Shown here: one piece after another, positions 30,481 to 47,722 of the stretch
Position numbering within the stretch: position 1 is the first letter of the stretch
How the letters are laid out: each line of letters opens with the position of its first letter
NCBI GenBank assembly: GCA_944323255.1
Contig: CALURU010000006.1
Coordinates: forward strand, 1-64,000
Direction of reading: 5' to 3'
Origin: Candidatus Gastranaerophilales bacterium
GTDB lineage: Bacteria > Cyanobacteriota > Vampirovibrionia > Gastranaerophilales > Gastranaerophilaceae
DNA: 64,000 bases
Notes under the pieces: generated by a model
What the model was told of the DNA's origin: nothing
The model's input: only the letters and a program-made list of their open reading frames with translations
Databases searched by the model: none
Translations under genes and position numbers: made by a program

Positions 30481-30849
30481 ATTGAAGTTTCTGTTTCCAA
30501 CTGGTAAGATCCCGAAAGGGGTAAATAAAATTTGTAGGTTTTACGCTTAACTGCTCCGCATGATTGAAGAAAATTCGGGATGACAGCACGCTTAGTGTCA
30601 ACTAACAAGTATAAAAGGAGGTATTATGAAAATCAGAAAAGATGTAAACGTAATAATCACATTTGACGACAAAGAATATTCGGAAGAAGAAACCGCAATT
30701 CTTTATCAACAATTTTTTGAGAGTTTAGCAAAAATCAAAGGAGTAAAAATTCCGGAATATACCGGCAAGGCTTTAGCTAAGGCGCTTAGAGTCAAAGAAA
30801 AAACATCTAAAGAGATTCGAACCTCTAAAACTGACAGTACAAAAGAGTT
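30406..30849 (+). repeat. Copy A of 444-bp inverted duplication
   Basis: Aligns without gaps to the reverse complement of 47279-47722, with only about a dozen mismatches. It spans R1 repeats and the first 74 codons of the 30626 gene. Confidence 0.9.
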
Positions 30850-30877
30850 TGTTTATAGACAGACAAGCTCTTGCTAA
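30626..30877 (+). CDS. Unknown 83-aa protein, duplicated at 47.3 kb
   Basis: Not recognised. A basic helical protein: MKIRKDVNVIITFDDKEYSEEE, then EKTSKEIRTSKTDSTKEF and a short C-terminal tail specific to this copy. AAAAGGAGG lies 6 nt before the ATG. Its near-identical copy (47275-47502) stops right at the end of the duplication, so this copy is the longer one. The next gene follows 10 nt after its stop. Confidence 0.75.
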   Translation: MKIRKDVNVIITFDDKEYSEEETAILYQQFFESLAKIKGVKIPEYTGKALAKALRVKEKTSKEIRTSKTDSTKEFVYRQTSSC

Positions 30878-30887
30878 AGAGGATTTT

Positions 30888-31070
30888 ATGACTGTTGTAT
30901 CCTTATCAATTGCAGAAATGCTCCAAGTACACGGAAACATAACTTCTGCCAAATACAGTTATGAATTAACTGACCTCATCCGCTCAGAATTGAATACATT
31001 TATCACAAACCCGGAAACCGCACAAAAATTAAAAATTCTTGAAAATATGTATAACAAGATAGGGAAATAA
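30888..31070 (+). CDS. Unknown 60-aa protein, partner of 30626 gene
   Basis: Small unknown protein, MTVVSLSIAEMLQVHGNITS then YELTDLIRSELNTFI. AGAGG lies 7 nt before the ATG at 30888. It is probably co-transcribed with the preceding gene. It is absent at the 47.3 kb copy. The pair might be a plasmid- or phage-derived regulatory module, but nothing in the sequence proves it. Confidence 0.65.
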   Translation: MTVVSLSIAEMLQVHGNITSAKYSYELTDLIRSELNTFITNPETAQKLKILENMYNKIGK

Positions 31071-31107
31071 CCAACGCTGATTACTTTTTTCCTTGAGTCA
31101 AAATACC

Positions 31108-33490: not shown

Positions 33491-33679
33491 ATTTATGCAA
33501 TCACTAATATGTCTTAAAAAACTTCCAACAAAATTAACTATATAATTTTTTTACAAATTTGGCAAGTATATTTACAAGTTTTAAAACATGTAATTGCAAT
33601 TCAAGAATCTGAAATGTATTTGCTAAATATAATTATTTAAGCTATCCTTAAAGAAAAATAAAATTAAAGGAGACTGTAT

Positions 33680-33931
33680 ATGAAGTGTGCACCGGTCTGT
33701 AATCACAAATTTCTGAAATTTAAACTTTCTGAACGAACAATGAAAACCATTTCAAAATCAACTAAATTATCAGAAGAAGAATTAAAGTCTCTGTCACTGG
33801 ATGAACAGATAAAATTAATGGAGCAGCGGGGCAGCCTGAAAAAACAGAATCCTGTGAAAAAATTTATTGCAGAAAAATATAGAAAACTGGGTGAAAAATT
33901 AGGCTTGTTGAATAAAGAGCATATTATATGA
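33680..33931 (+). CDS. Unknown 83-aa protein upstream of HxlR
   Basis: Not recognised. Cys-containing N-terminus (MKCAPVCNHKFLKF), Ser/Lys/Leu-rich helical middle and basic C-terminus (KKFIAEKYRKLGEKLG). AAAGGAG lies about 7 nt before the ATG. Its stop overlaps the HxlR start by 4 nt (ATGA). Confidence 0.7.
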   Translation: MKCAPVCNHKFLKFKLSERTMKTISKSTKLSEEELKSLSLDEQIKLMEQRGSLKKQNPVKKFIAEKYRKLGEKLGLLNKEHII

Positions 33932-34254
33932 AAAACAAAAACGAATTACCCAAATGCCCAGTAGAGGTGACACTTTCTTTAATTTCAGACCGCTGGAAAG
34001 TGTTAATAATAAGAGATTTATTAAATGGTACAAAAAGATTCGGAGAGTTAAGAAAATCTGTCGGGAATGTTTCCCAAAAAGTATTGACTGCAAATTTAAG
34101 GTCTATGGAAAATGACGGATTAATTAAAAGAAAAGTATATGCGCAAGTACCTCCAAAAGTTGAATATTCGTTAACAGAAACAGGCTTAAGCTTAAAATCT
34201 GTATTAAAGTCAATGGAAGAATGGGGATTAAAATACAAAGAGGAATGTTATTAA
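33928..34254 (+). CDS. HxlR-family transcriptional regulator
   Basis: A 108-residue winged-helix regulator: LISDRWKVLIIRDLLNGTKRF, then ELRKSVGNVSQKVLTANLRSM and VEYSLTETGLSLKSVLKSMEEWG. The N-terminal Cys in ELPKCPVEVTLS is often redox-sensing in this family. Coupled to the upstream small gene. No other target is adjacent downstream. Confidence 0.93.
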   Translation: MKNKNELPKCPVEVTLSLISDRWKVLIIRDLLNGTKRFGELRKSVGNVSQKVLTANLRSMENDGLIKRKVYAQVPPKVEYSLTETGLSLKSVLKSMEEWGLKYKEECY

Positions 34255-34487
34255 GATTAGTAGGTTTTGGTAATCTTTGATTACAGAAACATTATTTGAT
34301 GTGGTAAATCGGAGATTTACCACATCCTACAAGCTTCTCCTCCAGTTTCATAACGCATAAAACGATTACTTCCGACCGCCATCATTCAAACACAAAGCCA
34401 ACTTTGCCGAATAATCCTTTTATTCGTTCAGACAAAATGTCCCGTTAAAATACATCCGCAAACGCAGTTCACGAGCGAAAAGTCACT

Positions 34488-34515
34488 AAAAAAGAGCCTT
34501 TTCAGCTCTTTTAAT
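34488..34515 (-). terminator. Terminator of CAT tRNA gene
   Basis: On the minus strand AAAGAGC, a 7-nt loop, then GCTCTTTTTT directly downstream of the tRNA. Confidence 0.85.
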
Positions 34516-34521
34516 AAAATT

Positions 34522-34593
34522 TGGGCCCGGAGGGATTCGAACCCACGACCAAAGGATTATGAGTCCTCTGCGCTACCGCTGCGCCACAGGCCC
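34522..34593 (-). tRNA. tRNA with CAT anticodon (Met or Ile2)
   Basis: A complete cloverleaf of 72 nt without encoded CCA. The acceptor GGGCCTG pairs with CGGGCCC. The D-arm is GCGCAGCGGTAGCGC. The anticodon loop CTCATAA has anticodon CAT (34559-34561). The T-arm contains GTTCGAATC with one T-T mismatch. CAT elongator and tRNA-Ile2 (lysidine) cannot be separated by eye. Its 5' end is duplicated upstream in 132-bp tandem units. Confidence 0.93.
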
Positions 34594-34870
34594 GTGACGA
34601 CTTTTATATTTAATTTTCATCTAAGGCTTGCGTTAGCGCTATTCTCGCTTCCGCTCGATGCGCTCCCTACCTCTCCTCGAACGTGACATTAAGTCACCTT
34701 CTCGTCGGCAGAGTGCCACAGGCCCGTGACGACTTTTATATTTAATTTTCATCTAAGGCTTGCGTTAGCGCTATTCTCGCTTCCGCTCGATGTGCTCCCT
34801 ACCTCTCCTCGAACGTGACATTAAGTCACCTTCTCGTCGGCAGAGTGCCACAGACCTGTGACGACTTTTC
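34583..34870. repeat. Tandem 132-bp repeats beginning at the tRNA 5' end
   Basis: The motif GCCACAG (complement of the tRNA 5' end) with flanks recurs at 34583, 34715 and 34847, a period of exactly 132 nt and about 2.1 copies. The two full units differ by very few bases (such as GATGCG versus GATGTG). Each carries a truncated 11-12-nt tRNA 5' end and then non-tRNA sequence. Confidence 0.9.
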
Positions 34871-34917
34871 CATATTATCAACTAAATACTAAAAAATCAA
34901 GCACGTGTTATTAAGAA

Positions 34918-35316
34918 CTATGCTCGTACTTTAAATGCAAATTTTTTGAACAATATATATGTGAATATTGAAGCTATCAATGTTGCAATAATCTGTGATA
35001 CGAAAACGTTTATATGTAAAAATTTTACAATAAGTTCTAACAATCCTGCGTTAATTAGGTAGCTGAAAACCCAGGTTGTACAACATTTTATGTATTCTTT
35101 TTTCCAGTTGCCCTTACCTCTAAAAACCAGAAATTTTTGTGTCGTAAAAGAAACGACAGATGAAATTGCCCAAGCTGAAGCGAGTGCTATCTGATAAAAA
35201 TGTTCACCCAAAATCAAACAAATTGCAGTATAAATAAGGTACGATACACCGGCGTTAAATCCGCCTACTAATAAAAATCTTATTTTGTCCGAAATATTAA
35301 ACCAATATTTTTTCAT
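34918..35316 (-). CDS. GtrA-family membrane protein
   Basis: A 132-residue inner-membrane protein with four helices, typical for GtrA, which helps flip bactoprenol-linked glucose or similar sugar lipids. Landmarks are FLLVGGFNAGVSYLIYTAIC, SSVVSFTTQKFLVFRGKGNWKKE and IASIFTYILFKKFAF. AAGG precedes the ATG. No glycosyltransferase partner is adjacent. Confidence 0.9.
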   Translation of the reverse strand: MKKYWFNISDKIRFLLVGGFNAGVSYLIYTAICLILGEHFYQIALASAWAISSVVSFTTQKFLVFRGKGNWKKEYIKCCTTWVFSYLINAGLLELIVKFLHINVFVSQIIATLIASIFTYILFKKFAFKVRA

Positions 35317-35399
35317 TTTTACCTTGCTACTTCACTGCCAGTCGATTGATAGTAAATAGTGAGTGAATTTTTTCAACTCACTATTTACTTACTCTCATT

Positions 35400-37664
35400 C
35401 TACAAAAAACTGTATTCCGGAATTTCAAATACTTCATTATTCGCATCTTTTTCTACAAATTGCAAATAATAATCCAGCGCCCTTTCCTTTGATTTTTCGT
35501 AATACTCTTCAGAAATTAATTCCTTGTGCAGATCCGTTCTTTCACCAGAATAATTTCCCAGAACTCTTGCAAATTTTTCAATTTCTTCCAGCTTTTCACC
35601 GCCAGCATAAGCCTTTGTCTTAGCATCCGTTCCTGATGGGCGGATTTCTACATATTTATCGCTAAATTGCAGATATGTACCGTCACCGACAAATTTAACC
35701 GATTTCAGATTATCAAAACTCAATTCTGCAAAAGCACCGTTTAGAACTTTCTTAACTGCTTCTAAATCTGCCTTGCCTTCTCTAATTGCAATTGCAAGTG
35801 ATAAATAGAAAAGATCATTTTTTGTTCTCTGTTTTTCACCCTCAATTTTTGCCTGCTTCAGCTTATCAATATCAGGCTCGGATTCATTGTAATAAGAAAT
35901 ATCTTCCCTTACGTCATATTTTGCAATTATATTATTTTCATCAAATATTTCTACAAGGTATTCTGAAAGAGTTTTATTTTCGTGCTCCAGCCTTGCAGCA
36001 AGTGATGATGCAACTATAATTGCTTCCGTAGCACTCTTTTCTCTCATAGCAATAGCTCTTCTGCCCGCAAGTGATGCTATCAGATCCTCTGAACCCATAA
36101 TCATACCGCCGGATTCTTCTCCGCCAAAAATTAGACGTGGTTGAACACCAAGGTTGATTGAGTTTCCGAAAACGTCATCAACAACAACTTCTTTATCCGG
36201 ATGATTTTTAATCTGAAGCTCAACTTTTTTCATAATATTAGCAATTTCTTTAAAACCTACCGGAACGTTTACTACCTTTATACCATGAGCTTTTGCCCAC
36301 TCATCCCACGATAGAGCTGAGGCAGTTGTTTTTATCATAAATCTCGGATGGTTTTTGAACTTTCCGCTTGTTTTAAGCTGCTTAACTCTATAGTTCATAA
36401 GCATCAAAAATGCCTGATTTGCGCTATATACAGTTAAAATTCTGTCCTCATCCAGTTGAATATATGAGATTCCGTAATCATCAAGCATCGTTGAGCTTCC
36501 GGCAGCTTCTATCTGGCACACCGTAAGCCTGTCGTGATCCGGATCTGTAATTAATACAACCGTTCCAAGCGGGTAATCTTTCAGCACTTTGTCATAGTGC
36601 AGTGATTCTATTACAGGGAAAAATTTTTCGCCGTCAGGACGTTTTGCAACAACGGTTGCGTCTACGGAATAATCATAAAAAACCTTATTTCCCTTAGGAT
36701 CGGTATCATATTTTCCGATAGAATGGAAGAACGGATCCTCTTCTATGTTATTCCAGGCGTATTTATCCTGAATTCCCAATTTCTCAAGGACTCTGCTTAA
36801 AGTTCTGTAAGCGCATCCGCCCACACTTTCGATAAACAGCTTTGATTCCATTTTCTTTATGCTGCTTAAATCTTGTGCAACGCCGGATTTTAAGTATTCA
36901 ACATATAAATCAATGCCGTCATTAATTTTAGCCATTACTGCTTCATCAATCAAAGGATCATTTTTCGGACTGATTTTTATCTCGTAAGAGCCATCTTTTT
37001 CAGTTCTGTCAAAAATTTCCTGAATTTTGTTTACAAATTCCAGCGATTCTTCCGGCAAATATTGGCTGCCTTGAGAGTTTAAATCTTTTGTAGCAGTTTT
37101 GACCGAGATTCCGTGGCTTGAAGTAATATATTCACCGCCAACCAAATCAAGCTTGAATGCTAAAAAAGATGCCAGCCAAATAGGGATAGTCTTTCGTCCG
37201 GCAGGAACAAGCGTTCTTATACCTTGAGCAGCCTGTATTCTTGCAATAGCATCAAGATACAACGCAGAATTATATCTAACTTCGCTTCCTGCAAGCTTTA
37301 CGATTTCCTGATTCGGGTATTTTTCTTTTGCCACAAGCGCCTTAGCAAGTGTTGCAAGTACAATTCCCACAAGATTAATCGGAAATCTTGTGTCCTGCGG
37401 AAACAAGATATTTTGCGGACCTCTTATACCGGCAGTAGAAACCTTTGCCTCTTTAGAATAATTAGCAAACCATTCCTTGAGGTTTAACCCCTCCGGATTG
37501 CTTTCACTATGCGGGTTCAGATGTTCTTTTTTTAATGTAAATGTGAATCCGCCCTCATTATCGAAATTTAATAAATCAAGATTTTTTATATAATCAGGAG
37601 TCTTATCCAAAACATTTTTAAACAGTTCTCCTTCTAACTCACAGCTTGGTTTTAATCTATACAT
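35400..37664 (-). CDS. Phosphoglucomutase/phosphomannomutase-like, long form
   Basis: Alpha-D-phosphohexomutase superfamily, 754 residues, longer than the usual 450-600. Motifs in order: STAGIRGPQN (76-85), the catalytic serine loop ITSSHGISVK (180-189, where most relatives have TASHNP), the metal-binding TDPDHDRLTV, the sugar-binding FGGEESGGMI, and the phosphate-binding RPSGTDAKTKAY. Extra length lies between the domains and at the N-terminus. It would interconvert hexose 1- and 6-phosphates for glycogen or surface sugars. GGAGAGG precedes the ATG. Monocistronic. Confidence 0.9.
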   Translation of the reverse strand: MYRLKPSCELEGELFKNVLDKTPDYIKNLDLLNFDNEGGFTFTLKKEHLNPHSESNPEGLNLKEWFANYSKEAKVSTAGIRGPQNILFPQDTRFPINLVGIVLATLAKALVAKEKYPNQEIVKLAGSEVRYNSALYLDAIARIQAAQGIRTLVPAGRKTIPIWLASFLAFKLDLVGGEYITSSHGISVKTATKDLNSQGSQYLPEESLEFVNKIQEIFDRTEKDGSYEIKISPKNDPLIDEAVMAKINDGIDLYVEYLKSGVAQDLSSIKKMESKLFIESVGGCAYRTLSRVLEKLGIQDKYAWNNIEEDPFFHSIGKYDTDPKGNKVFYDYSVDATVVAKRPDGEKFFPVIESLHYDKVLKDYPLGTVVLITDPDHDRLTVCQIEAAGSSTMLDDYGISYIQLDEDRILTVYSANQAFLMLMNYRVKQLKTSGKFKNHPRFMIKTTASALSWDEWAKAHGIKVVNVPVGFKEIANIMKKVELQIKNHPDKEVVVDDVFGNSINLGVQPRLIFGGEESGGMIMGSEDLIASLAGRRAIAMREKSATEAIIVASSLAARLEHENKTLSEYLVEIFDENNIIAKYDVREDISYYNESEPDIDKLKQAKIEGEKQRTKNDLFYLSLAIAIREGKADLEAVKKVLNGAFAELSFDNLKSVKFVGDGTYLQFSDKYVEIRPSGTDAKTKAYAGGEKLEEIEKFARVLGNYSGERTDLHKELISEEYYEKSKERALDYYLQFVEKDANNEVFEIPEYSFL

Positions 37665-37821
37665 AACTAAATCCTCTCCTAACTAAGCTTTACCATTATA
37701 TCATAAAAACTTTACATTTGTAACAATCTCCTATAAATATAGGGTTGAAAAACGTTTGTACATGTTTTATAATAAATATATATAGTATATATTCAATTAA
37801 ATACAAAAAAGGATTTTTATT

Positions 37822-39558
37822 ATGACAATATCGTTTAGTGGTTTGGCTTCAGGATTAGATACATCATCATGGGTAGAAGCTTTTGTCTCCGTAAAACAGG
37901 AAGAAGTCAAAAAATATGAAACAAGTTTAGAAGAGTTGCAAACTCAGAAAACAACTCTAAATGATACAAGAAGTGTATTTTCCGATTTGCGTTCAGCTAT
38001 TGAAAAGCTTACGGATGCAAAATTTGGCGGATCATTCGACTTGTTTGCCCAAAATTCTGTTACCTCTTCAAATGAGGAAATCTTTACTGCAACTGTAACA
38101 AGCAGCGCTGTCAGACAAAATTATGACATAAAGGTTCAACAGCTTGCTACAACAACAAAAGCAACTTCAAAAGAAGCTGCCAGTGCAGTTGCAGATGATG
38201 AAACTCTTTTATCTAATCTGGGAATTGCTGCAGGAACGCTTACTGCATATGTAAATGGTGAAAAACATACTATTAATATTGATAGTGCAGATACTTTAGG
38301 TGATTTAAAAGCTCGTATGGCTGAATTTGGCATAAAAACAGAAATCAGCGATACAGGTGTATTAAGCTTTTCTGCACAAAACGGCACTGATACTGTCAAT
38401 ATAGGCGCAACAACAGATAGTTCAAATCTGGTATCTTTAATCGGTTTAACCCAGCAGGAGGACGGAACTTATGCGTCTACAAATTCTTTGTATAAAGCTT
38501 CTGTTGCATCAAAGTTAACCTCTGAAGATTCAGGTTTCAATCAGCAAATCACAGCCGGTACATTCACAATCGGCGATGCAACATTTACAATTGATGAAAA
38601 TACGACATTGTCATCTATTATTTCACAGATTAATAGCAGTGAAGATGCGCAGGCATATGCATACTGGGATGATGCTACCGGTAAATTAACTATTACTTCT
38701 ACAAAAGAAGGTGCTTCTTATATTAATATCGAAGCCGGAACAAGTAATTTTACCGACGTTATGGGCTTTACTAATTCTGAGTGGGATGATGAGGGCAACC
38801 TTGTATCTTCTAAAATGTACACGGATGCTCAAACACTTGGAAAAAATGCCATATTTACAGTCAATGGGACAACAATGACTTCTACATCTAATACCGTAAC
38901 TTCTGATATTTCAAGAATTGAAGGGGTTACATTAACTCTTAAACGTGAGAACACTGAAGAAGATGGCAACACTACTTTGCAAGTAACTCAAGATACTTCA
39001 GGACTTGAAGATGCCGTAAATGAATTTATAGAAGCTTATAATGCAGCTATTGCAAAGGTTGAAGAAGTTACTGCAAGCGGTGAAGATCTCCACGGTGAAA
39101 CTTCGCTTACAAGTCTTACAAGAACTTTAAGAAGCTATGCTAACAGTTCTAACGGTACAAACGGCGGCATTTATAAATTGTTATCCGATATTGGTATTTC
39201 TACTGCATCAGCAGACGGAAACAACCTTTCTACTGACACTTATGAGCTTTCACTTGATTCCGAAAAATTTATGAAAGCTTTGCAGGAAAATCCAGAATCA
39301 GTAAAATCCTTGCTTACAGGTGAAAATGGGGTTTTAAGCATGATGGAAAATGCAGTAGAACAAAGCTTGTCTGCAACTACCGGATATTTTGATATCAAAA
39401 CTTCTACACTGGATTCTGATATTGAAAAAATGGAAGAAAAAATTACTAAGAAAAATACAAGTATTGAAACTTATAGAACGCAGTTAGAAAATAAATTCTA
39501 TCAAATGGAAATGGCAATTGCACAAATGCAGCAAAATTACAGCTCATTCCTGTCTTAG
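37822..39558 (+). CDS. fliD: Flagellar filament cap protein
   Basis: Hook-associated protein 2, the cap that assembles flagellin, 578 residues. The N-terminus ISFSGLASGLDTSSWVEAFV is diagnostic, the long acidic/Thr-rich middle carries the variable D2-D3 domains, and the C-terminal coil (KMEEKITKKNTSIETYRTQLENKFYQMEMAIAQMQ, heptad-rich) matches the D0-D1 domain. AAGGA lies before the ATG. No other flagellar gene is in the window, and a strong terminator closes it. The organism is therefore probably motile, or was ancestrally. Confidence 0.95.
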   Translation: MTISFSGLASGLDTSSWVEAFVSVKQEEVKKYETSLEELQTQKTTLNDTRSVFSDLRSAIEKLTDAKFGGSFDLFAQNSVTSSNEEIFTATVTSSAVRQNYDIKVQQLATTTKATSKEAASAVADDETLLSNLGIAAGTLTAYVNGEKHTINIDSADTLGDLKARMAEFGIKTEISDTGVLSFSAQNGTDTVNIGATTDSSNLVSLIGLTQQEDGTYASTNSLYKASVASKLTSEDSGFNQQITAGTFTIGDATFTIDENTTLSSIISQINSSEDAQAYAYWDDATGKLTITSTKEGASYINIEAGTSNFTDVMGFTNSEWDDEGNLVSSKMYTDAQTLGKNAIFTVNGTTMTSTSNTVTSDISRIEGVTLTLKRENTEEDGNTTLQVTQDTSGLEDAVNEFIEAYNAAIAKVEEVTASGEDLHGETSLTSLTRTLRSYANSSNGTNGGIYKLLSDIGISTASADGNNLSTDTYELSLDSEKFMKALQENPESVKSLLTGENGVLSMMENAVEQSLSATTGYFDIKTSTLDSDIEKMEEKITKKNTSIETYRTQLENKFYQMEMAIAQMQQNYSSFLS

Positions 39559-39570
39559 AGTTGTTAATAC

Positions 39571-39611
39571 AAAAACGGGTGCCGGACTAAAAGTCCGGCA
39601 CCCGTTTTTTC
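39571..39611 (+). terminator. fliD terminator
   Basis: Perfect hairpin AACGGGTGCCGGACT/AGTCCGGCACCCGTT with a 3-nt loop and a T-run. Confidence 0.92.
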
Positions 39612-39628
39612 TGACAATTTTATCCAAA

Positions 39629-39652
39629 TAAAAAGCCCCTAATCGGGGCTAA
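39629..39652 (-). terminator. Hairpin downstream of 39841 gene
   Basis: Stem AGCCCC/GGGGCT with loop TAAT, followed on the minus strand by TTTTTATTT. It could terminate transcripts arriving from the 39841-40086 gene. Confidence 0.6.
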
Positions 39653-39721
39653 AATTTGAGTAAGATGTAAGATGGGGTAATTTTGGGTTAGTAGTTTATA
39701 GAGCTACAAGTTTTTAGTAAA

Positions 39722-39838
39722 GGGTTGAAGAGTTGAAAAGTGGAGGAACTGAAACGTTAGTTATATCTCTATTTACGTGAGCGTAAGCGAACTTATCGAA
39801 CTATTCAACTTATCCACTTTTCAACTCTTCAACTTATA
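39722..39838. repeat. R2 long inverted repeat, second copy
   Basis: Arms GTTGAAGAGTTGAAAAGTGGA near 39724 and the complement ending near 39834. The core carries GTGAGCGTAAGCGAAC, which is also similar to the core of the element at 42759-42837. Sister of 8354-8471. Confidence 0.8.
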
Positions 39839-39840
39839 TC

Positions 39841-40086
39841 TTATTTCAGTAATGTAGAGATAAATCTAATAGAGTCGTCCTTTAATTCTCTGACAAAATC
39901 TCTTGCGATCTTTGAAAGAGGTCTGTTGTCAATTTTATCAAATACATCGTAGATTGGATCGCCGCCGTTATTAAATCTCATTTGTCTGTCCTGTTTTTTG
40001 AGATAATAGAATTGAAAGTCAGAAGGGATTTCTAAAGCTCCTGCCGGTTTTTTATTTCTTTCGATTGCATCGTATGTTGCTGTCAT
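39841..40086 (-). CDS. Unknown 81-aa protein
   Basis: Not recognised. MTATYDAIERNKKPAGALEI, then an aromatic and charged middle and the C-terminal helix RELKDDSIRFISTLLK. The ATG at 40086 is preferred to an upstream TTG. A purine-rich stretch GAGAGAG lies about 9 nt upstream. Divergent from recG. Confidence 0.65.
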   Translation of the reverse strand: MTATYDAIERNKKPAGALEIPSDFQFYYLKKQDRQMRFNNGGDPIYDVFDKIDNRPLSKIARDFVRELKDDSIRFISTLLK

Positions 40087-40196
40087 AATTCTTACTCTCT
40101 CTTTCAATTATCTCTTACATATATATAAAGTATATCTATTCTAAAAAATTGCCTTTTTTCTGTGCTTTGTTAAGAAATATTAAGGCGAATTTGTTG

Positions 40197-40202
40197 TATA
40201 AT
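40197..40202 (+). promoter_or_regulatory. -10 TATAAT, 6 nt before recG ATG
   Basis: Perfect TATAAT ends 6 nt before the recG start codon and no Shine-Dalgarno is present. Predicted leaderless start. Confidence 0.55.
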
Positions 40203-40208
40203 CTATAC

Positions 40209-42572
40209 ATGGATAATTTGGAGCAGATAAAAAAGGCTGTCGAGATTGAGGTTAAGTATAAATATATCAATATTAACGGGAAAACGAGGAGTTTTTCTTC
40301 ATTCATCTGCTCGGAATTGCGCAAGGAGATAAAAAGCTCACAAAACCCTAAGTGGCAGGTGCTTTTGGAGCATTTTGAGCGGTATCAAATGGATACCTTG
40401 CCCCAGAGAAAAAAATCACTTGAGCGATTAGTGAGTGTAATTAAGGCAGAGAGCGGAAATCCACCGGTTGAAGCAAAAAACAGCAGACTTACACTCAAGT
40501 CTGACGTTATGTATCTTAAAGGGATTGGTCCGAAAATTGCCTATATTCTAAATAAACTTGGAATTTACACAGTCGGCGATCTGCTGTATTATTTCCCCCG
40601 CAAACATGTGGACTATTCGACAAGGACAAAAATCAGAGACCTGACTCCAGGCGAGACTACTACAGTTTTTGGCACAATTCGTTCGGTAGAGGCTTTTACA
40701 ACCAAAAATAATCTTGGTGTTGTAAAGGTTAAAATTGTTGATGGCTCGGGAAGTATAAATCTTAATTTCTTTTCTTCCAAGTCTAACAAGTACACGCTTG
40801 AGAGGATTAAATCCCAGTTTCCGAAAGGCTCTGGAATAATGGTTTCAGGAACGGTCAAAATAAATTCTTATGATGGGATGCCAACTCTCGACAAACCGAC
40901 TTATTCCATCATGGATGATGAAATCCTCTCGTCGTCAAATATTAATCTTGCAAGAATTGTTCCTATTTACCCCCTGAGCGAAAATCTGAACATAAAGACT
41001 CTCAGAAAAGCAATATATAATACCATTCAGCTTTTCAAAAACGAAATTGAGACGGTTTTGCCGGCATATATTATTGAAAAATACAATCTTTTACCGAAAA
41101 AAGAAGCGGTAGAGCAAATGCATTTCCCAAACGATAACGAATCGCTGCAGAGAGCACGGTTTTCGCTTGTATTTGAAGAGTTGTTTCTTATTCAATTAAG
41201 ACTTGCGCTTTTGAGGGAAGAAAACAACAGAACAATCTCTTCAATCCCGCTGGAAATTAAGCGTGACGGGCTTGTAATGCGCTTTATTAACGGGCTTCCG
41301 TTTGAGCTTACGGGTGCACAAAAAAGGGCTGTAAATGAGATTTTGAACGACTTAAACTCTACAAAACCTATGCAAAGACTTTTGCAGGGTGATGTTGGAA
41401 GCGGTAAAACAGTTGTTGCAACAATTATGCTTCTTGCTGCGATAGAAAACGGGTATCAGGCTGCGATTATGGCACCAACAGAGATTCTGGCGCAGCAGCA
41501 TTACAACAATATGGTAAACTGGCTTGCGCCGCTTGGAATCAGGGTTGAATTATTTCTCGGAAGTATCGGTAAAAAGCAGAGAACAATTTCAGAAACTAAC
41601 CTTAGGAACGGTCAAGCGGATATTGCGGTCGGTACGCATGCACTTATTCAGGATAATATTGAATTTGCTAACCTTGGCGCTGTTGTAATTGACGAGCAGC
41701 ATAGATTTGGCGTAAAACAAAGGCTTGCACTCCGCAAAAAATCGCAAAATCCGCAAATTCTTACAATGACTGCCACTCCGATTCCAAGAACACTTGCTAT
41801 TACAATGAACGGCGATCTGGATTTAACGATTATTGACGAACTTCCAAAAGGCAGAAAACCTATCATCACAAAGCTTGTAAACTCCAAAAAACAAATAACG
41901 GAGCTTATCCGGCACGAGGTCGAAGCCGGACGTCAGGCGTACATTGTTTATCCCCTGATTGAAGAAAGCGAAACGCTTTCTGCAAAAGCAGCAACAATTG
42001 AAAAAGAACGCTGGGAAAAAGAAGTTTTTCCGGAATACAAAATCGGGCTTTTGCACGGGAAGTTAAAAAATGACGAAAAAGATGAGGTCATGAATAAATT
42101 CAAAAATAAGGAATATGATATCCTTGTCTCAACAACTGTTGTGGAAGTCGGGGTTGATGTTCCGAATGCGACTGTTATTGTTATAGAAAACGCTGAACGC
42201 TTCGGACTTTCGCAGCTCCATCAGCTGAGAGGGCGTGTCGGAAGAAGCGACCTTCAATCATATTGTCTGCTTTCTTCTTCTACAAAGTCGATGGAAACAA
42301 GGGCAAGGCTCAATATTATGACGCAGACAAACGACGGGTTTGTAATTGCGGAGCAGGATTTGCAAATCAGAGGACCGGGCGAATTTCTCGGAACACGTCA
42401 GAGCGGACTTCCGGATATGATTATTGCCGATATCGTACACGATGCTAAAATACTTGAGCTTGCACGCAGTGAAGCGATTAATTTTGTGAAAAATAACAAC
42501 ATTGATGATTATCCGCTATTAAAAGAAGCAAAAAGTTTGAATTTTGACGGCAATTTATTCGGCGCCGGCTAG
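40209..42572 (+). CDS. recG: ATP-dependent DNA helicase RecG
   Basis: Branch-migrating helicase for stalled forks and recombination intermediates, 787 residues. An N-terminal extension of about 100 residues, as in plant and cyanobacterial RecG, precedes the wedge OB domain (GIGPKIAYILNKLGIYTVGDLLYYFPRKH). Helicase motifs: I (LLQGDVGSGKT), II (DEQHRFG), III (TMTATPIPRTLA), V (VVEVGVDVPNATVIVIE) and VI (QLRGRVGR). The start is set at 40209, not 40149, because a TATAAT box ends 6 nt before it. Confidence 0.96.
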   Translation: MDNLEQIKKAVEIEVKYKYININGKTRSFSSFICSELRKEIKSSQNPKWQVLLEHFERYQMDTLPQRKKSLERLVSVIKAESGNPPVEAKNSRLTLKSDVMYLKGIGPKIAYILNKLGIYTVGDLLYYFPRKHVDYSTRTKIRDLTPGETTTVFGTIRSVEAFTTKNNLGVVKVKIVDGSGSINLNFFSSKSNKYTLERIKSQFPKGSGIMVSGTVKINSYDGMPTLDKPTYSIMDDEILSSSNINLARIVPIYPLSENLNIKTLRKAIYNTIQLFKNEIETVLPAYIIEKYNLLPKKEAVEQMHFPNDNESLQRARFSLVFEELFLIQLRLALLREENNRTISSIPLEIKRDGLVMRFINGLPFELTGAQKRAVNEILNDLNSTKPMQRLLQGDVGSGKTVVATIMLLAAIENGYQAAIMAPTEILAQQHYNNMVNWLAPLGIRVELFLGSIGKKQRTISETNLRNGQADIAVGTHALIQDNIEFANLGAVVIDEQHRFGVKQRLALRKKSQNPQILTMTATPIPRTLAITMNGDLDLTIIDELPKGRKPIITKLVNSKKQITELIRHEVEAGRQAYIVYPLIEESETLSAKAATIEKERWEKEVFPEYKIGLLHGKLKNDEKDEVMNKFKNKEYDILVSTTVVEVGVDVPNATVIVIENAERFGLSQLHQLRGRVGRSDLQSYCLLSSSTKSMETRARLNIMTQTNDGFVIAEQDLQIRGPGEFLGTRQSGLPDMIIADIVHDAKILELARSEAINFVKNNNIDDYPLLKEAKSLNFDGNLFGAG

Positions 42573-42950
42573 GGGTAAATACATTTTGTCGGGTGACAAT
42601 TGTAAAATTACCAATCAGGCTTTTTTGCCCTGTCACCCTCAAAGAGTAACTTTTACAGTTTGTTTAGTGAACTTTTTCTTTACTAAAAAGAAAAAGAAAA
42701 GAAGAAACAAAATGTTAACAGAAAAGACACCGATAGTACAATGGCAAGAAATTACTTTCCCCTCGCCCCTTGTGGGAGAGGGAAGAATTTCTTAGTGAGC
42801 GTTTAGCGAACTTAGAAATTCGGGTGAGGGGTTAACCTCGTTTAAGATTGCTTCGGGCTGTCTTGGATTGTTCACTCGTAATGATGCGTGGCTTGTAGAA
42901 ATGTAAGTCAGGTTTTACCTAACAATAACTCTTGTGGAGCAAGCTCCACA
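42573..42950. repeat. Repeat-rich intergenic region
   Basis: No gene. It holds a half copy of the T-rich palindrome (42660-42705), an element with CCCCTCGCCCCTTGTGGGAG near 42759, a stem GAATTTCT...AGAAATTC and the mirror part ending near 42837, and a decayed AGATTGCTTCGGG...CTCGTAATGATGCG element (about 42845-42885). A short ORF here only translates the repeats. Confidence 0.7.
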
Positions 42951-43199
42951 CTACTTATTAGAATTACTTTCAAATTCTTCCCATCCCTTTACCAGATTAG
43001 AGGTTGTTGTTTGTAATGCTTCTGCAATTTTAAAAAATTTTGTCGTAGAAAGACCATAAGCTTTTCCGCTTTCTATTTTTTCCATATATTGCTTGCGTAA
43101 ACCTGATTTTGAAGCTAATTCGTCAATTGTTAATTCGTTTTTCTCTCTATAATATTTAATTCTTGCTCCTATAAATTCAAAAAATAGCTTTTTTCTCAT
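42951..43199 (-). CDS. XRE-family HTH regulator
   Basis: An 82-residue DNA-binding protein. The helix-turn-helix is ARIKYYREKNELTIDELASKSGLRKQYMEKIESG (about 11-44), followed by STTKFFKIAEAL. GAGG precedes the ATG. It is divergent from the DUF6471-like gene. The interval holds palindromic elements that may be its operators. Confidence 0.9.
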   Translation of the reverse strand: MRKKLFFEFIGARIKYYREKNELTIDELASKSGLRKQYMEKIESGKAYGLSTTKFFKIAEALQTTTSNLVKGWEEFESNSNK

Positions 43200-43256
43200 A
43201 ATTACCTCACATTATTAATAAATGTAAAATATAAACACACTAATCAGAGTTAAATT

Positions 43257-43270
43257 TCACTAATAAGTGA
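43257..43270. promoter_or_regulatory. Palindrome TCACTAATAAGTGA, candidate operator
   Basis: TCACT-AATA-AGTGA inverted repeat between divergent XRE and DUF6471-like genes, near a TATAAT (43320-43325). Related half-sites (ACACTAATCA near 43237, ACACTTATTTGTCA near 43290) flank it. Suits a small XRE dimer site. Confidence 0.4.
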
Positions 43271-43332
43271 TTTAATTATATATCTTGTACACTTATTTGT
43301 CAACATTTTCATGTATTAGTATAATTATTAAC

Positions 43333-43554
43333 ATGAGTATGAAAGCCAGAGAACAAATAAAATCGTTATTAGCGGCAAAAAATATTAAAATGAAGGAACT
43401 TTGCAAGTTATTATCCGAGGAAATGGGAAAAAATTATAGTTCCAATAATCTTTCAAATAAACTTATTAGAGGTAGTATAACATACAACGAAGTTTTACTT
43501 ATAGCGGAAATTCTGGGGTACAAAATAACTTTTGTTGATACTGAAGATATATAG
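43333..43554 (+). CDS. DUF6471-like HTH protein
   Basis: A 73-residue protein that looks like the DUF6471 family: LLAAKNIKMKELCKLLSEE, YSSNNLSNKLIRGSITYNEVL, then IAEILGYKITFV. It probably has a helix-turn-helix fold of the Cro type. Start at 43333 or 43339, with TATAAT ending 7 nt before 43333. The family commonly sits in accessory gene sets. Confidence 0.75.
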   Translation: MSMKAREQIKSLLAAKNIKMKELCKLLSEEMGKNYSSNNLSNKLIRGSITYNEVLLIAEILGYKITFVDTEDI

Positions 43555-43592
43555 ATTAAGAACAATATTGCCCGAATCACAACAAAGATCTA

Positions 43593-43621
43593 TTGACAAC
43601 TTATAAAAAATAGTAAATAAT
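43593..43621 (+). promoter_or_regulatory. Promoter of predicted antisense RNA
   Basis: Consensus -35 TTGACA (43593-43598), 17-nt spacer, -10 AATAAT (43616-43621). Transcription would begin near 43628 at GTAGGGC. Confidence 0.6.
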
Positions 43622-43627
43622 AAAAAA

Positions 43628-43682
43628 GTAGGGCGAGAGCCTTTAAAAATAAGCAGGCTTAAAGACTCTTCTTCGCACCCTA
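43628..43682 (-). terminator. Terminator of toxin-like peptide mRNA
   Basis: On the minus strand GTAGGGTGCGA ... TCTCGCCCTAC forms the outer stem, with GAGTCTTTAA ... TTTAAAGGCTC within, followed by TTTTTT. The stop codon TAG starts at its 5' arm. Confidence 0.75.
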
Positions 43683-43749
43683 CGATTGAATTAATAGTTT
43701 TAATGCTACTATTGTGATTGAAGTTGCTAATAGTAGCATTATTATTTTG
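43628..43749 (+). ncRNA. Predicted antisense RNA (antitoxin candidate)
   Basis: About 120 nt beginning at GTAGGGCGAGAGCC, running antisense to the 3' half of the peptide mRNA, and ending at a terminator inside the peptide ORF: a perfect 12-bp stem (43702-43713 with 43729-43740), then ATTATTTT. It parallels the locus at 23.2 kb. Confidence 0.55.
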
Positions 43750-43757
43750 TCAATCAT
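43680..43757 (-). CDS. Hydrophobic 25-aa peptide, type I toxin-like
   Basis: A 25-residue peptide with a single membrane-spanning helix (MIDKIIMLLLATSITIVALK, ending LLIQS). AAAGGAGG lies 9 nt before the ATG. The 5' leader starts near GTAGGGC (43829-43823), which pairs perfectly with GCCCTAC at the 3' end (43634-43628), and also contains a TTAGCA/TGCTAA hairpin. The stop codon is the first base of the terminator stem. A larger frame of 92 residues exists but does not fit the ribosome-binding site. Toxin role inferred from architecture. Confidence 0.6.
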   Translation of the reverse strand: MIDKIIMLLLATSITIVALKLLIQS

Positions 43758-43931
43758 AGCTATTCGCCTCCTTTCGTCCAATTTCCTCGAGAATGTGTGT
43801 GACGAAGTTAGCATAGTGCTAAGCCCTACAATAATTAAATTAACATAGCTTTTATTTTTAGTAAATATATTAAATAAATGAATAAATGTATATGTGCTGA
43901 TTAAGTATATTTGTTTGACAATTATAAAAAT

Positions 43932-43955
43932 GGGGCGGGGTGCTTTGCACCCCGC
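43932..43955. terminator. GC-rich terminator after pepA
   Basis: Hairpin GGCGGGGTGC/GCACCCCGCC with a small loop (TTT). A short AT-rich tract follows on both sides. It probably terminates pepA on the minus strand. Confidence 0.7.
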
Positions 43956-43977
43956 CATTATTCTTAATAGTTTGTAA

Positions 43978-45378
43978 TTATTGTTCCAAAATGTAATTTA
44001 AAAGTGTTCTTACACCTGCGCCGGTCGCACCTTTGATAAATTCTTTCTGAGGTTTATCAAGGAAAGCAGTACCCGCAATATCAATGTGAGCCCATTTTAC
44101 ATCTTTTACGAACTTTTGCAGGAAAACGCCGGCAATTGATGCGCCGCCCCAGCGTGCACCGGTATTTTTCATATCCGCAATGTCGCTTTTGAGACTGTCA
44201 AAATATTCTTCCCATAAAGGAAGCTCCCAGTATCTTTCACCGTTTCTTTCCGCAGTGGCAATAAGATTTTTGACCAAGCCTTCATCATTACCCATAATAC
44301 CTGCCGCATTTGTGCCTAAAGCTACCATGCAGGCGCCTGTAAGTGTTGCAAGATCAATTACTTCATCAACACCGAGTTCGCAGGCATAACAGAGCGCATC
44401 GGCAAGAGTCAGCCTGCCTTCTGCATCAGTATTATCAACTTCAATAGTCTTTCCGTTCATTGCGGTTAAGATATCCCCCGGCTTGTAAGCTGAACAGCCC
44501 GGCATGTTTTCGCAAGCCGCAATGATACCGTGAACTTCCACCTGCGGATGAAATTCTCGTAAGATGCTCATTACGCCTAAAACACAAGCTGCGGCAGACA
44601 TATCATCTTTCATTGTAAGCATGGATGAAGGCGGTTTGATATCCAATCCACCGCTATCAAAGGTTATACCTTTACCGATTATGGCGATTTTCTTTTTAGG
44701 GTTGTCAACCTGATATTTCATATGGATGAATTTAGGTTCTTGAGCGCTTCCTCTTGATACGGCAAGGAATGCCCCCATACCCATTTTTTCGCACTCTTCT
44801 TTGTTGTATATTTTTGTGTCCAGACCAAAATCACACGCAATGTTAGCAAGCTCTGTCGGGGTAGCAAATTGAGCCGGCTCATTTGCAAGATTTCTTGCAA
44901 ATGTCATAGCTGCGGCAATTTTTTCTGCTTTTTTTACGATATCAGCGTTAGCCTGAACGTAAACTTCCTGAACCTTGTTGTCTTTCTTTTCCGATTTATA
45001 TTTATCAAAAGCATAATCTGCAATAAATGCTCCCATTGCGAATTGTTCCGAATAATCAAATTCAATTCCGTTGAGAGAGAAGGAAACTTTTTTAGCCTCC
45101 ATTTGCATACATTTCTTGATTGCTTTTGCAACAGCTTCTCTCATTTTATTCGGGTTAAACTCTGCTCTCTTTCCTAATCCAAGGACAAGAACTTTTTTGT
45201 AAATTTCTTGACCGTATGTCGGAAGAAGGTATGTTTCGCCGAATTTACCTTTAAAATTATCCTGCTCAACAGCGTATTTGTTAGCAAGATCATTTGTTGT
45301 ATTTTCTTCTTCAAACTTGTTTACCACAAGAATGTCGGATTCAATACTTTTTGCATCCTGAACAACTTTGATTTCCAT
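43978..45378 (-). CDS. pepA: Leucyl aminopeptidase (M17)
   Basis: Cytosolic Zn/Mn aminopeptidase, 466 residues, slightly shorter than E. coli PepA (503). Metal and catalytic residues: K236 and D241 in IIGKGITFDSGG, D259 region in TMKDDMSAAA, and D318/E320 in the signature NTDAEGRLTLADAL. The N-terminal regulatory macro-like domain is short. AAGGAG lies 9-10 nt before the ATG. Monocistronic. Confidence 0.96.
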   Translation of the reverse strand: MEIKVVQDAKSIESDILVVNKFEEENTTNDLANKYAVEQDNFKGKFGETYLLPTYGQEIYKKVLVLGLGKRAEFNPNKMREAVAKAIKKCMQMEAKKVSFSLNGIEFDYSEQFAMGAFIADYAFDKYKSEKKDNKVQEVYVQANADIVKKAEKIAAAMTFARNLANEPAQFATPTELANIACDFGLDTKIYNKEECEKMGMGAFLAVSRGSAQEPKFIHMKYQVDNPKKKIAIIGKGITFDSGGLDIKPPSSMLTMKDDMSAAACVLGVMSILREFHPQVEVHGIIAACENMPGCSAYKPGDILTAMNGKTIEVDNTDAEGRLTLADALCYACELGVDEVIDLATLTGACMVALGTNAAGIMGNDEGLVKNLIATAERNGERYWELPLWEEYFDSLKSDIADMKNTGARWGGASIAGVFLQKFVKDVKWAHIDIAGTAFLDKPQKEFIKGATGAGVRTLLNYILEQ

Positions 45379-45501
45379 ATATCAAAACTCCTTTCTTATT
45401 CTAGTATTGTATATAATTTGAATTTTGTTTTAAATACGCTAATTAGATTATTATAACAAAGTATTTGACATTGAATTTTGTTTGAATTAATATAAATTCT
45501 G

Positions 45502-45530
45502 TTGACAGCCGGGGGTAAATAGACTATAAA
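45502..45530 (+). promoter_or_regulatory. Consensus promoter upstream of tRNA-Val
   Basis: -35 TTGACA (45502-45507), 17-nt spacer, -10 TATAAA (45525-45530). It precedes the duplicated tRNA 5' end and the intact tRNA-Val. Confidence 0.7.
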
Positions 45531-45566
45531 GTCTGGTTCCGCCAAAAGGGTGCAAACCCAAGTGAT

Positions 45567-45732
45567 AAAAGAATACAGGTGCGGGCGTTTAGCTCAGTTG
45601 CCCAGCGAGGCGGCAAGGCTAGAAGCATAAGCAAAAGGTTTAGGAGGTTGAGCCGAGCGGTTCTAAGATACGGACGCTCTACCAACTGAACAAATGACAA
45701 AAGAATACAGGTGCGGGCGTTTAGCTCAGTTG
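45567..45732 (+). repeat. 132-bp direct duplication of tRNA-Val 5' end
   Basis: A 34-nt stretch (AAAAGAATACAGGTGCGGGCG... through TTTAGCTCAGTTG) occurs at 45567-45600 and again at 45699-45732, exactly 132 nt apart. The second is the start of the intact tRNA. Between them, GAGCCGAGCGGTTCTAAG resembles a tRNA-Leu/Ser D-arm, and GCTCTACCAACTGAAC is a reverse-complement copy of the tRNA D-arm. Confidence 0.85.
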
Positions 45733-45790
45733 GTAGAGCGTCTCCCTTACAAGGAGAGGGTCAGAAGTTCGAGTCTTCTAACGCCCACCA
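45715..45790 (+). tRNA. tRNA-Val(TAC)
   Basis: 76 nt including encoded CCA. The acceptor GGGCGTT pairs with AACGCCC. The D-arm is GCTCAGTTGGTAGAGC. The anticodon stem is TCTCC/GGAGA with loop CTTACAA, anticodon TAC (45748-45750). The T-arm GAAGTTCGAGTCTTC is fully paired. A hairpin terminator follows at 45795-45826. Confidence 0.96.
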
Positions 45791-45794
45791 TTTA

Positions 45795-45826
45795 AAAAGA
45801 AGTCATTAAGACTTCTTTTTTTATTG
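45795..45826 (+). terminator. tRNA-Val terminator
   Basis: AAAAAGAAGTC-ATTAA-GACTTCTTTTTTT hairpin directly after the CCA end. Confidence 0.88.
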
Positions 45827-45938
45827 TCAAAATGGGGCTTTTCGACTCTGCACTTGTTCAAACAAGGCAGACACCAAAAACAACCAATCACCAAAACGCA
45901 ATAATAACGAGAGTCTTAGAAGTTTGAGCACAATTTTA

Positions 45939-46166
45939 TTATTTTTTGTCGTCAAAATTGTTGTTATATAAGGCTTTTGAGGCAAAATTAGAAAAATTTT
46001 GTTCATATTCTTTTTGCTCTTTTTTCGTTTTAAACTTTTTAGCCTCTTGCTTTGCTGATAATTTCATTAAACATAAAATTAAATCACAAATGGCTTTTGC
46101 TCTTTCTTCCTCTGTTGGGTTTGAATTGTCAAATTTAACAATAAAATTTGGTTTCTTTGTTGTCAT
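45939..46166 (-). CDS. Unknown 75-aa protein
   Basis: Not recognised. A charged, Lys/Glu/Gln-rich protein (MTTKKPNFIVKFDNSNPTEE...KFKTKKEQKEYEQNF...). AAGGGAG lies 8 nt before the ATG at 46166. It is near the tRNA-Val locus, in very AT-rich accessory DNA, and divergent from the 46231 gene. Confidence 0.65.
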   Translation of the reverse strand: MTTKKPNFIVKFDNSNPTEEERAKAICDLILCLMKLSAKQEAKKFKTKKEQKEYEQNFSNFASKALYNNNFDDKK

Positions 46167-46230
46167 AATGTTCTCCCTTCTTTTAAACAGAAAATTATTT
46201 GTTCTATAATAGGGATAATGAAAGGAAACC

Positions 46231-47046
46231 ATGTTTAATTTTTATTTAAATAATAATTCAAAAGATTGGCTTGATATAGTTGGTATTGTTGGACAAATAT
46301 TGGTTCCTATTATTGTTTTAATAATTTCTATTTTATACACAAATTCAAGAAACAATAACTTAGATAAACAATTTACACAACAATTAAAACAACAAAAAGA
46401 ACAATGGCTAAGTGATGAATTTATAAAAAATGAAGCAAGAAAAATTATAGAATTTAGAGATATATGCTTTAAGTCATGTGATTCTGCTATTTGGCTGATA
46501 AATACTTTATTTTCAGCTCAATATTTACATGGCTTTTATATGGATGAAAATAATAAATATTTATTAATGGACACAATAAATATGCATTATAAAGAGGCAA
46601 AAAAAATTCCCGATTTTTATTTTAAAAATCAAATGATATTTAAGAAATATGGAATTGGAGCAGAGATTGAGTATATTTCTATGATATTAGAAATAGTTGC
46701 GGTTAGTTTAAAAAATTCTAGTGATTTAATATATAGTTTATTTAAAGAAAATGAGCAAATAAAAGAATATAGACATAATAAATATAAAGAATTAATTGAT
46801 TTTCTTGTAACAGGATTGGATTTACAATTTTCCATTATAGAAAATTCGTTTAGCGATGAAAATATAAAAAACGAAATTATAAATTTGAATTTTGATGAAA
46901 AATTGAATAAATACAAAAATTTTATTATTTCAAAAATAATTGGTTTGGAGTTTGCGTTAGAAAAACTAACCTTAATTGATTATGAAAATATTCCAGTTAC
47001 TCTAAAAAGTATATCTAAAAGAACAATTCCTGATTCATTAATTTAG
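46231..47046 (+). CDS. Unknown membrane-anchored accessory protein
   Basis: A 271-residue protein with one N-terminal transmembrane helix (LDIVGIVGQILVPIIVLIISILY, about 14-36), then a coiled coil (NNLDKQFTQQLKQQKEQW) and a helical cytoplasmic or periplasmic body. Codon use is extremely A/T-rich (Asn, Lys, Ile), unlike the housekeeping neighbours, which suggests recent acquisition. AAAGGA precedes the ATG. No family is recognised. A defence-type accessory role is possible but unproven. Confidence 0.7.
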   Translation: MFNFYLNNNSKDWLDIVGIVGQILVPIIVLIISILYTNSRNNNLDKQFTQQLKQQKEQWLSDEFIKNEARKIIEFRDICFKSCDSAIWLINTLFSAQYLHGFYMDENNKYLLMDTINMHYKEAKKIPDFYFKNQMIFKKYGIGAEIEYISMILEIVAVSLKNSSDLIYSLFKENEQIKEYRHNKYKELIDFLVTGLDLQFSIIENSFSDENIKNEIINLNFDEKLNKYKNFIISKIIGLEFALEKLTLIDYENIPVTLKSISKRTIPDSLI

Positions 47047-47139
47047 ACTTAGTTAATCAACTTTTCTCAAATTTATACTATCAATCATTCTACCAAGTTC
47101 AAACATTTCAAAAGTACGGACTTTTTCAATAAATTTATT

Positions 47140-47215
47140 GATTATAAGTTCTAACTTTGTAACCTCTGCACCACCATTTCTAAAAAGAGCCGAAAAGGCT
47201 CTTTTTTAGTGGCTT
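47140..47215 (+). other. tRNA-3'-end-like remnant with terminator
   Basis: AAGTTCTAACTTTGTAACCTCTGCACCACCA followed by TTTCTAAAAAGAGCCGAAAAGGCTC and a T-run. Ends in CCACCA directly before a tRNA-style terminator. A parallel fragment lies at 48510-48572. Probably a broken tRNA 3' half or attachment-site remnant. Confidence 0.4.
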
Positions 47216-47274
47216 TTCGCTTGTGGTCTATGTTTGCAGATTTCGAGCATTTTGAAAGAAGTTTTTAAAAATCG

Positions 47275-47502
47275 CTAGAACTCTTTTGTATTGTCAGTTT
47301 TAGGGGTTCGAATCTCTTTAGATATTTTTTCTTTGGCTCTAAGAGCCTTCGCTAAAGCCTTTTCGGCATATTCCGGAATTTTTACTCCTTTGATTTTTGC
47401 TAAACTCTCAAAAAATTGTTGATAAAGAAATGCGGTTTCTTCTTCCGAATATTCTTTGTCGTCAAATGTGATTATTACGTTTACATCTTTTCTGATTTTC
47501 AT
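47275..47502 (-). CDS. Copy of unknown 83-aa protein
   Basis: A 75-residue near-identical copy of the 30626 product (MKIRKDVNVIITFDDKEYSEEE...). It ends with a TAG created right where the duplication stops (KTDNTKEF then stop), and its partner gene is missing. AAGGAGG precedes the ATG. It may still be expressed, but is likely a duplicated fragment. Confidence 0.65.
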   Translation of the reverse strand: MKIRKDVNVIITFDDKEYSEEETAFLYQQFFESLAKIKGVKIPEYAEKALAKALRAKEKISKEIRTPKTDNTKEF

Positions 47503-47722
47503 AATACCTCCTTTTATACTTGTTAGTTGACACTAAGCGTGCTGTCATCCCGAATTTTCTTCAATCATGCGGAGCAGTTAAGCGTAAAACCTACAAATTT
47601 TATTTACCCCTTTCGGGATCTTACCAGTTGGAAACAGAAACTTCAATTTGGTAAGACCCTGAAACGAGTTCAGGGTGACATTAATATAAATAAAATTCAT
47701 TTACCCCTCGGGATCTTACCAG
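47279..47722 (-). repeat. Copy B of 444-bp inverted duplication
   Basis: Reverse-complement copy of 30406-30849 with about a dozen substitutions and no indels. Confidence 0.9.

Follow-up and report, generated by a model that had tools for sequence, protein, structure and literature searches.

The duplicated 5′ end of tRNA-Val (TAC) described here is, on balance, probably a trace, among many others, left by small non-coding palindromic (hairpin) repeats invading tRNA genes of the Gastranaerophilaceae, a family of uncultured, cyanobacteria-like gut microbes. It lies in a 64,000-nt window, the whole stretch of DNA analyzed, from a Candidatus Gastranaerophilales genome. A repeat search at this locus returned a 42-nt direct repeat (45559–45600 and 45691–45732, 95% identical) at a spacing of exactly 132 nt. 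Its 34-nt core (45567–45600), which an earlier note on this DNA had reported as duplicated, is indeed identical in both copies and comprises 16 nt of leader and tRNA nt 1–18. This 18-nt match is the longest to the tRNA's own 5′ end in the upstream DNA, compared with a maximum of 9 in 30 shuffles. The reverse-complement D-arm noted between the copies was also recovered, as an inverted copy (45673–45694 versus 45721–45742, 91% over 22 nt) that contains a 17-nt exact antisense match. The supposed tRNA-Leu/Ser-like D-arm turned out to belong to a conserved insert core (GAGCCGAGCG...), which other species also have at tRNA-Gly and tRNA-Val, and Rfam gave no tRNA match in the Val insert where this arm had been proposed. 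The parts of the locus are as follows.

45465–45493, plus strand: tRNA-Val promoter (TTGACA, 17 nt, TAATAT), assigned from sequence
45500–45511, plus strand: native tRNA leader TGTTGACAGCCG, which also precedes the intact tRNA at L053, an empty site, and the first stub at L054 and L140
45512–45559, plus strand: class C insert starting with GGGGTAAAT, boundaries approximate; class C inserts also occur at the Val locus of relatives
45560–45582, plus strand: leader copy 1, direct repeat with 45692–45714
45583–45600, plus strand: tRNA-Val 5′ stub (nt 1–18), 18/18 identical to the tRNA
45601–45672, plus strand: class A insert core, to which cores at Val and Gly of other species are homologous
45673–45689, plus strand: antisense copy of the tRNA-Val D-arm, 17-nt exact complement, with GCTCTACCAACTGA invariant in ten species
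45692–45714, plus strand: leader copy 2, the new leader of the intact tRNA, direct repeat with 45560–45582 and unlike the native leader
45715–45790, plus strand: intact tRNA-Val (TAC) (ARAGORN; Rfam RF00005, 74.3 bits)

The neighboring pepA encodes a protein up to 96% identical to Candidatus Gastranaerophilales records. The motif GGGGTAAAT is present in 9 copies in the 64-kb window versus 0.46 expected (positions 23524, 30421, 30518, 40965, 42572, 45512, 47602, 47699 and 56193), mostly in intergenic DNA.

Copies of tRNA 5′ ends across the genome

The genome is a MAG of 2.23 Mb in 49 contigs, 98.5% complete. We compared each of its 40 non-redundant tRNA genes with its own upstream DNA, scoring a 5′ unit where an exact upstream copy of at least 10 nt of the gene's own 5′ end was present. 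The earlier note had called for such a check of all tRNA genes, and duplications do occur elsewhere: 14 of the 40 genes carry one, at spacings of 94–152 nt (Phe 94; Val-GAC 95; Arg-TCT 98; Ala-TGC 103; Met 111; Leu-TAA 116; Ala-GGC 126; Val-TAC and Met-CAT 132; Gly-TCC 133; Asp 143; both Pro 144; Leu-GAG 152). The longest own-5′-end match in shuffled upstream DNA was 7–11 at most. A second species of the same genus (G033) has an own-5′-end copy upstream of 9/30 tRNA genes, and a control genome from another family of the same order (G044) of 0/32. Clear units with shorter exact stubs were additionally found at Asn and Leu-CAA, where the antisense arms measure 16 and 15 nt.

The units share a recurring order: promoter, native leader, tRNA 5′ stub, insert, often an antisense D-arm, an AT-rich leader and the intact tRNA. 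They sit between promoter and tRNA, and in most the structured insert lies in the D-loop region. Where present, the antisense arm is specific to its own tRNA, matching it over 16 nt at Asn (no more than 8 for any other tRNA), 15 at Leu-CAA (7), 14 at Pro-TGG (9) and 16 at Arg-ACG of G033 (8); the Val-GAC, Arg-TCT and Asp units have no clear arm. A leader motif, TTGAMAATTWAATA, goes with the stubs (Fisher p 0.007 in this genome and 0.014 in G033) and precedes 1/32 tRNAs in G044. Six of the eight exact copies of TTGAMAAYTAAATA in the genome stand just before an intact tRNA, and a seventh stands before a Leu-CAA stub at a contig end. We considered TTGAMAATTWAATA as a second promoter and discarded the idea, since no −10 element lies at the correct distance. 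It is instead a motif of leaders, with exact matches located mainly before tRNAs. Among 29 arrays, the distal stub was the worse one in 11 and the better one in 2, a polarity that is only suggestive, because three of the distal hits could be chance matches.

The second tRNA singled out by the earlier note, with anticodon CAT, has the 132-nt repeat described there, in 2.2 tandem units.

34522–34593, minus strand: intact tRNA (CAT) (ARAGORN; Rfam, 69.7 bits)
34594–34725, minus strand: Met unit 1, a 132-nt tandem repeat unit with tRNA stub and class B cassette 34670–34714 (core 34680–34700)
34726–34857, minus strand: Met unit 2, a 132-nt tandem repeat unit with diverged stub and class B cassette 34802–34846 (core 34812–34832)

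The equal period of the Val and Met loci is a coincidence, because spacings in the genome span 94–152 nt and the insert classes of the two loci differ; with 14 spacings within a range of about 60, pairs such as 132/132 and 144/144 are expected. These observations rule out the period as the mark of one element. A common process at the two tRNAs, which had been argued from the period, is nevertheless supported by the number of tRNA genes affected in both genomes.

The units recall integrase-borne elements that target tRNA genes: as with attachment sites, direct repeats of the tRNA end flank the insert and the tRNA gene is made whole again, so that the stubs could be read as attachment-site remnants of a phage, a plasmid or such an element. 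However, units of 94–152 nt have no coding capacity and are too short to encode an integrase between the repeats; they are tandem, contain an inverted copy of the target and occur at many tRNAs. Comparison of the units with phage, plasmid and IMG/VR sequences gave no match, on which ground a phage or plasmid origin was rejected, and we regard conventional integration as very unlikely. The small tRNA-targeting element suggested previously therefore comes close to the hairpin inserts found here, but integrase-type integration left no sign.

Template switching with fold-back typically yields repeats in direct-inverted-direct order. Replication stalled at a tRNA gene might copy its 5′ end, fold back for the inverted arm and resume, leaving scars with hairpins of local origin and involving no mobile element at tRNA loci. 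The order of the units fits such an event, as does the plain partial duplication at Arg-TCT of this genome. However, the same insert sequences occur at different tRNAs, in different species and at non-tRNA sites, and units are frequent in Gastranaerophilaceae and, at 5′ ends, were not seen in the control family. Template switching, another mechanism raised in the earlier note, may contribute, because many units hold an inverted copy, but alone it is insufficient, because it leaves the recurring insert sequences unexplained; as the whole account it appears unlikely. The Arg-TCT duplication itself (L017, near 1402–1500) places about the first 50 nt of the tRNA 98 nt upstream with no recognized insert, which speaks against invasion by hairpin repeats, and is possibly an early stage.

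Turnover at the Val/pepA locus

Comparison with relatives at the orthologous Val/pepA locus revealed empty, filled and mixed sites. Empty sites, defined by 41–52 nt from −35 to tRNA and no stub, were found at L049, L051, L053, L055 and L064 and, by the same criteria, at L070, L074, L078 and L092; in these relatives the same promoter directly precedes the tRNA. Other species carry class A, class C or both. The units are patchy among close relatives, and class A requires at least 3 changes on the pepA tree, on well supported branches. The native leader TGTTGACAGCCGG precedes the tRNA at the empty L053 and the first stub at the filled L140 and L054, and at class A sites the intact tRNA has a new leader. 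The stub is therefore in the original place, and it is the intact gene that was restored. Different classes stand in series in the arrays of L054, L069, L075 and the Leu-TAA gene of this genome.

Orthologous sites also bear on whether the units are artefacts of short-read assembly. The genome is a MAG in 49 contigs, contig ends of some relatives fall at or close to these tRNAs, and 17.3 kb of the window is present a second time on one contig (C16); however, many MAGs produced independently in separate studies show the same anatomy, in diverged sequence, in contig interiors, and an artefact is hardly credible. The C16 copy (L042) corresponds to window positions 30253–47554, is 100% identical and inverted, and lies at the contig end, bounded by inverted repeats of about 280 bp (96%), in which ORFs of the MKIRKDVNVIITFDDKEY type are encoded. 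It is either an invertible segment or an assembly duplicate and, being identical over 30.25–47.55 kb, does not offer independent evidence for its Val and Met loci. Separately, L259 contains a sub-threshold tmRNA match (2811–3074, 27.9 bits versus a gathering threshold of 47) that is cut at the locus end.

Across ten species, the class A spacing at Val is 129–133 nt; the stub hardly varies and GCTCTACCAACTGA within the antisense arm does not vary at all, while the core has diverged. The arm is better kept than a passive scar should be, which counts against invasion by hairpin repeats, the explanation preferred here. The same pattern favors the main rival, a cis-regulatory RNA: a transcribed leader would control tRNA maturation, its antisense arm pairing with the stub or with the real D-arm, and such a switch would set the amount of folding tRNA. 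The position of the units between promoter and tRNA is consistent with this, as is the predicted Val fold (fold z −4.5), in which the arm pairs with tRNA nt 12–28 at a probability near 1 and which is favored by 13.7 kcal/mol over a forced cloverleaf, in an equilibrium calculation that ignores co-transcriptional order and processing. Against it stand the patchy distribution among close relatives, the units that have no clear antisense arm (Val-GAC, Arg-TCT, Asp) and an alignment of class A with no covariation support. Regulation of this kind is possible, although we doubt that it accounts for the units.

Insert classes and sites beyond tRNA 5′ ends

The class A insert (TTGCCCAGCGAGGC...GCCGAGCG...) occurs at Val and Gly in this genome and in relatives, and the Asp insert is related to it. 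On contigs that also hold a tRNA, all class A hits lie beside tRNA-Val or tRNA-Gly. Class B (ACTCTGCCGA-hairpin-GAGAGG) is found at Met, Val-GAC, Ala-GGC and Leu, and class C is marked by GGGGTAAAT. Of 146 genomes of the class, 9, belonging to several genera, contain the class B core, which precedes tRNA-Leu, Val, Ile and Met there. In antisense orientation it lies on the 3′ side of tRNA-Arg (this genome) and of tRNA-Leu, and it also occupies two non-tRNA loci. In a sister genus, the non-tRNA loci belong to an 88-nt palindromic repeat (GTCCTCCCCTTG-cassette-...GAGGAGGGG), of which one genome, G209, holds eight full-length or near-full-length copies at 95% identity or more. The same cassette tips unrelated palindromes (GGTGCAGG...CCTGCACC; CATTGCGAGC...AAGCAATCC; CGGATGGAGC...ATCCG). 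Mobility away from tRNAs is thus shown for class B; class A, the class of the Val locus, gave no such case on contigs that hold a tRNA, which counts against the invasion reading for this locus.

The class B cassette is a hairpin of about 45 nt. Among 18 cassettes, 6 of 16 pairs were changed on both sides, and the covariation score exceeded that of all 500 shuffles (0/500). These compensatory changes indicate that the hairpin is maintained, as RNA or as single-stranded DNA. The class A alignment and consensus fold lacked covariation support, and therefore we claim no conserved RNA structure for that class. With a cassette of about 45 nt, palindromes of 88 nt and tRNA units mostly of 94–152 nt, all non-coding, the elements stay below the 200 bp typical of MITE-like palindromic mobile repeats, which they also resemble in dispersed near-identical copies (class B) and in having both empty and filled orthologous sites (Val/pepA). 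In L250, a class B cassette preceding a G033 Met tRNA seems to be broken up by a GGGGTAAAT element, a nesting of modules.

Mirror-image units were observed downstream of tRNA terminators, where copies of the tRNA 3′ end carry an insert in the T-arm, commonly in the T-loop. They occur at Arg-CCT and Gln-CTG in this genome, at Gly-TCC, Ile, Gly-GCC, Met, Arg-TCT, Gln and Phe in G033, and at Asp in G044. The exact pattern of one 3′ family (GCGCGAGYGAGCTGAGG...GTTAAACGCGANCGAGCAAGACA) is present in 20 of 146 genomes of the class, all Gastranaerophilaceae, and at other sites it can stand immediately behind apparent stop codons. Since mirror units lie past the terminators and some are antisense, a function purely as a 5′ leader is hard to reconcile with them. 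In L300–L327, we further noted a dispersed structured repeat of about 100 nt (GCGCGAGYGAGCTGAGG...CGAGCAAGACA) at tRNA 3′ ends and immediately after apparent stop codons of other genes, and in L303 this repeat holds a class B-type cassette inside.

Proposed mechanism and related repeats

Invasion by hairpin repeats, the explanation we prefer, would begin with a nested small palindromic repeat entering a tRNA gene near its 5′ end, in most cases within the D-loop region. An intact tRNA gene would be restored on the far side of the insert, possibly in one and the same event. Left behind would be the native promoter and leader, the 5′ stub, the hairpin insert, in many cases an antisense D-arm that may derive from fold-back copying, a new AT-rich leader and the whole tRNA. 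Units could then multiply or collapse by slippage or unequal exchange between the direct repeats of leader and tRNA 5′ end, with exchange the probable route of array growth, and new insert classes re-entering the intact tRNA would generate mixed arrays. A mirror form would act on tRNA 3′ ends, with an insert in the T-arm and a restored 3′ end and terminator.

Two known agents of mobilization, Y1 transposase and reverse transcriptase, were sought in this genome. Y1_Tnp (PF01797) had no match, with positive controls matching, and neither did RVT_1, which counts against the preferred explanation; a REP/RAYT system was ruled out by the absence of a Y1 (TnpA_REP) transposase, and reverse transcriptase-driven mobilization by that of RVT_1. 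A T-box, RtT or other known RNA was rejected for want of an Rfam match at gathering or relaxed thresholds. A bolder reading sees a new kind of mobile system, whose structured hairpin modules insert into tRNA-arm loops and at the tips of other palindromes, prime inverted copying of a target stretch and, as part of one event, bring back the intact gene, leaving tRNA stub arrays ordered with the oldest nearest the promoter; taken jointly, these claims seem rather unlikely to hold.

tRNA genes are among the most constrained genes, and about a third of those in this genome carry self-stubs with structured inserts. If the inserts are mobile, a non-coding repeat could use an essential gene as a safe harbor and leave it intact; if they are regulatory, they would represent a new control of tRNA supply. 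Because many species offer orthologous sites of both kinds, empty and filled, either idea can be tested directly. Annotators should be aware that stubs can break assemblies and mimic integration sites.

To our knowledge, arrays of restored genes with antisense target copies are undescribed, and no earlier description appeared in the literature searched, in which subscription journals are mostly missing. Integrative elements that target tRNA genes likewise insert into the gene and restore an intact copy; here, however, units are about 100–200 nt, have no visible integrase or cargo, contain an inverted target copy and form tandem arrays. REP/REPIN sequences with RAYT (Y1) are also short intergenic multi-copy hairpin repeats, but this genome is without the Y1_Tnp domain and the targets here are tRNA arms. 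The closest kin are bacterial small palindromic repeats, namely RPE (Rickettsia palindromic elements), YPAL/RU-2 and other MITE-like repeats (PMC2229807). RPEs are inserted in tmRNA and RNase P RNA genes, and Yersinia YPAL duplicates 3–26 bp of its target, which spans or adjoins dyad symmetry (PMC2229807). The present elements resemble them in being short, palindromic, dispersed and, at tRNA loci, non-coding. They differ in targeting tRNA ends, with the intact gene restored beside the stub, in duplications that reach about 36–42 nt, and in their frequent antisense target copy, tandem arrays and nested hairpin modules; a terminal TA motif is not established for them. The E. coli tyrT repeats carry copies of a tRNA 3′ end. 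RtT RNA comes from tyrT and other tRNA operons of E. coli (PMC4986893) and is, like the units described here, a repeat-derived RNA of tRNA transcription units. Here Rfam gives no match, both tRNA ends occur and the inserts are unrelated, so that the parallel is one in kind, not in sequence.
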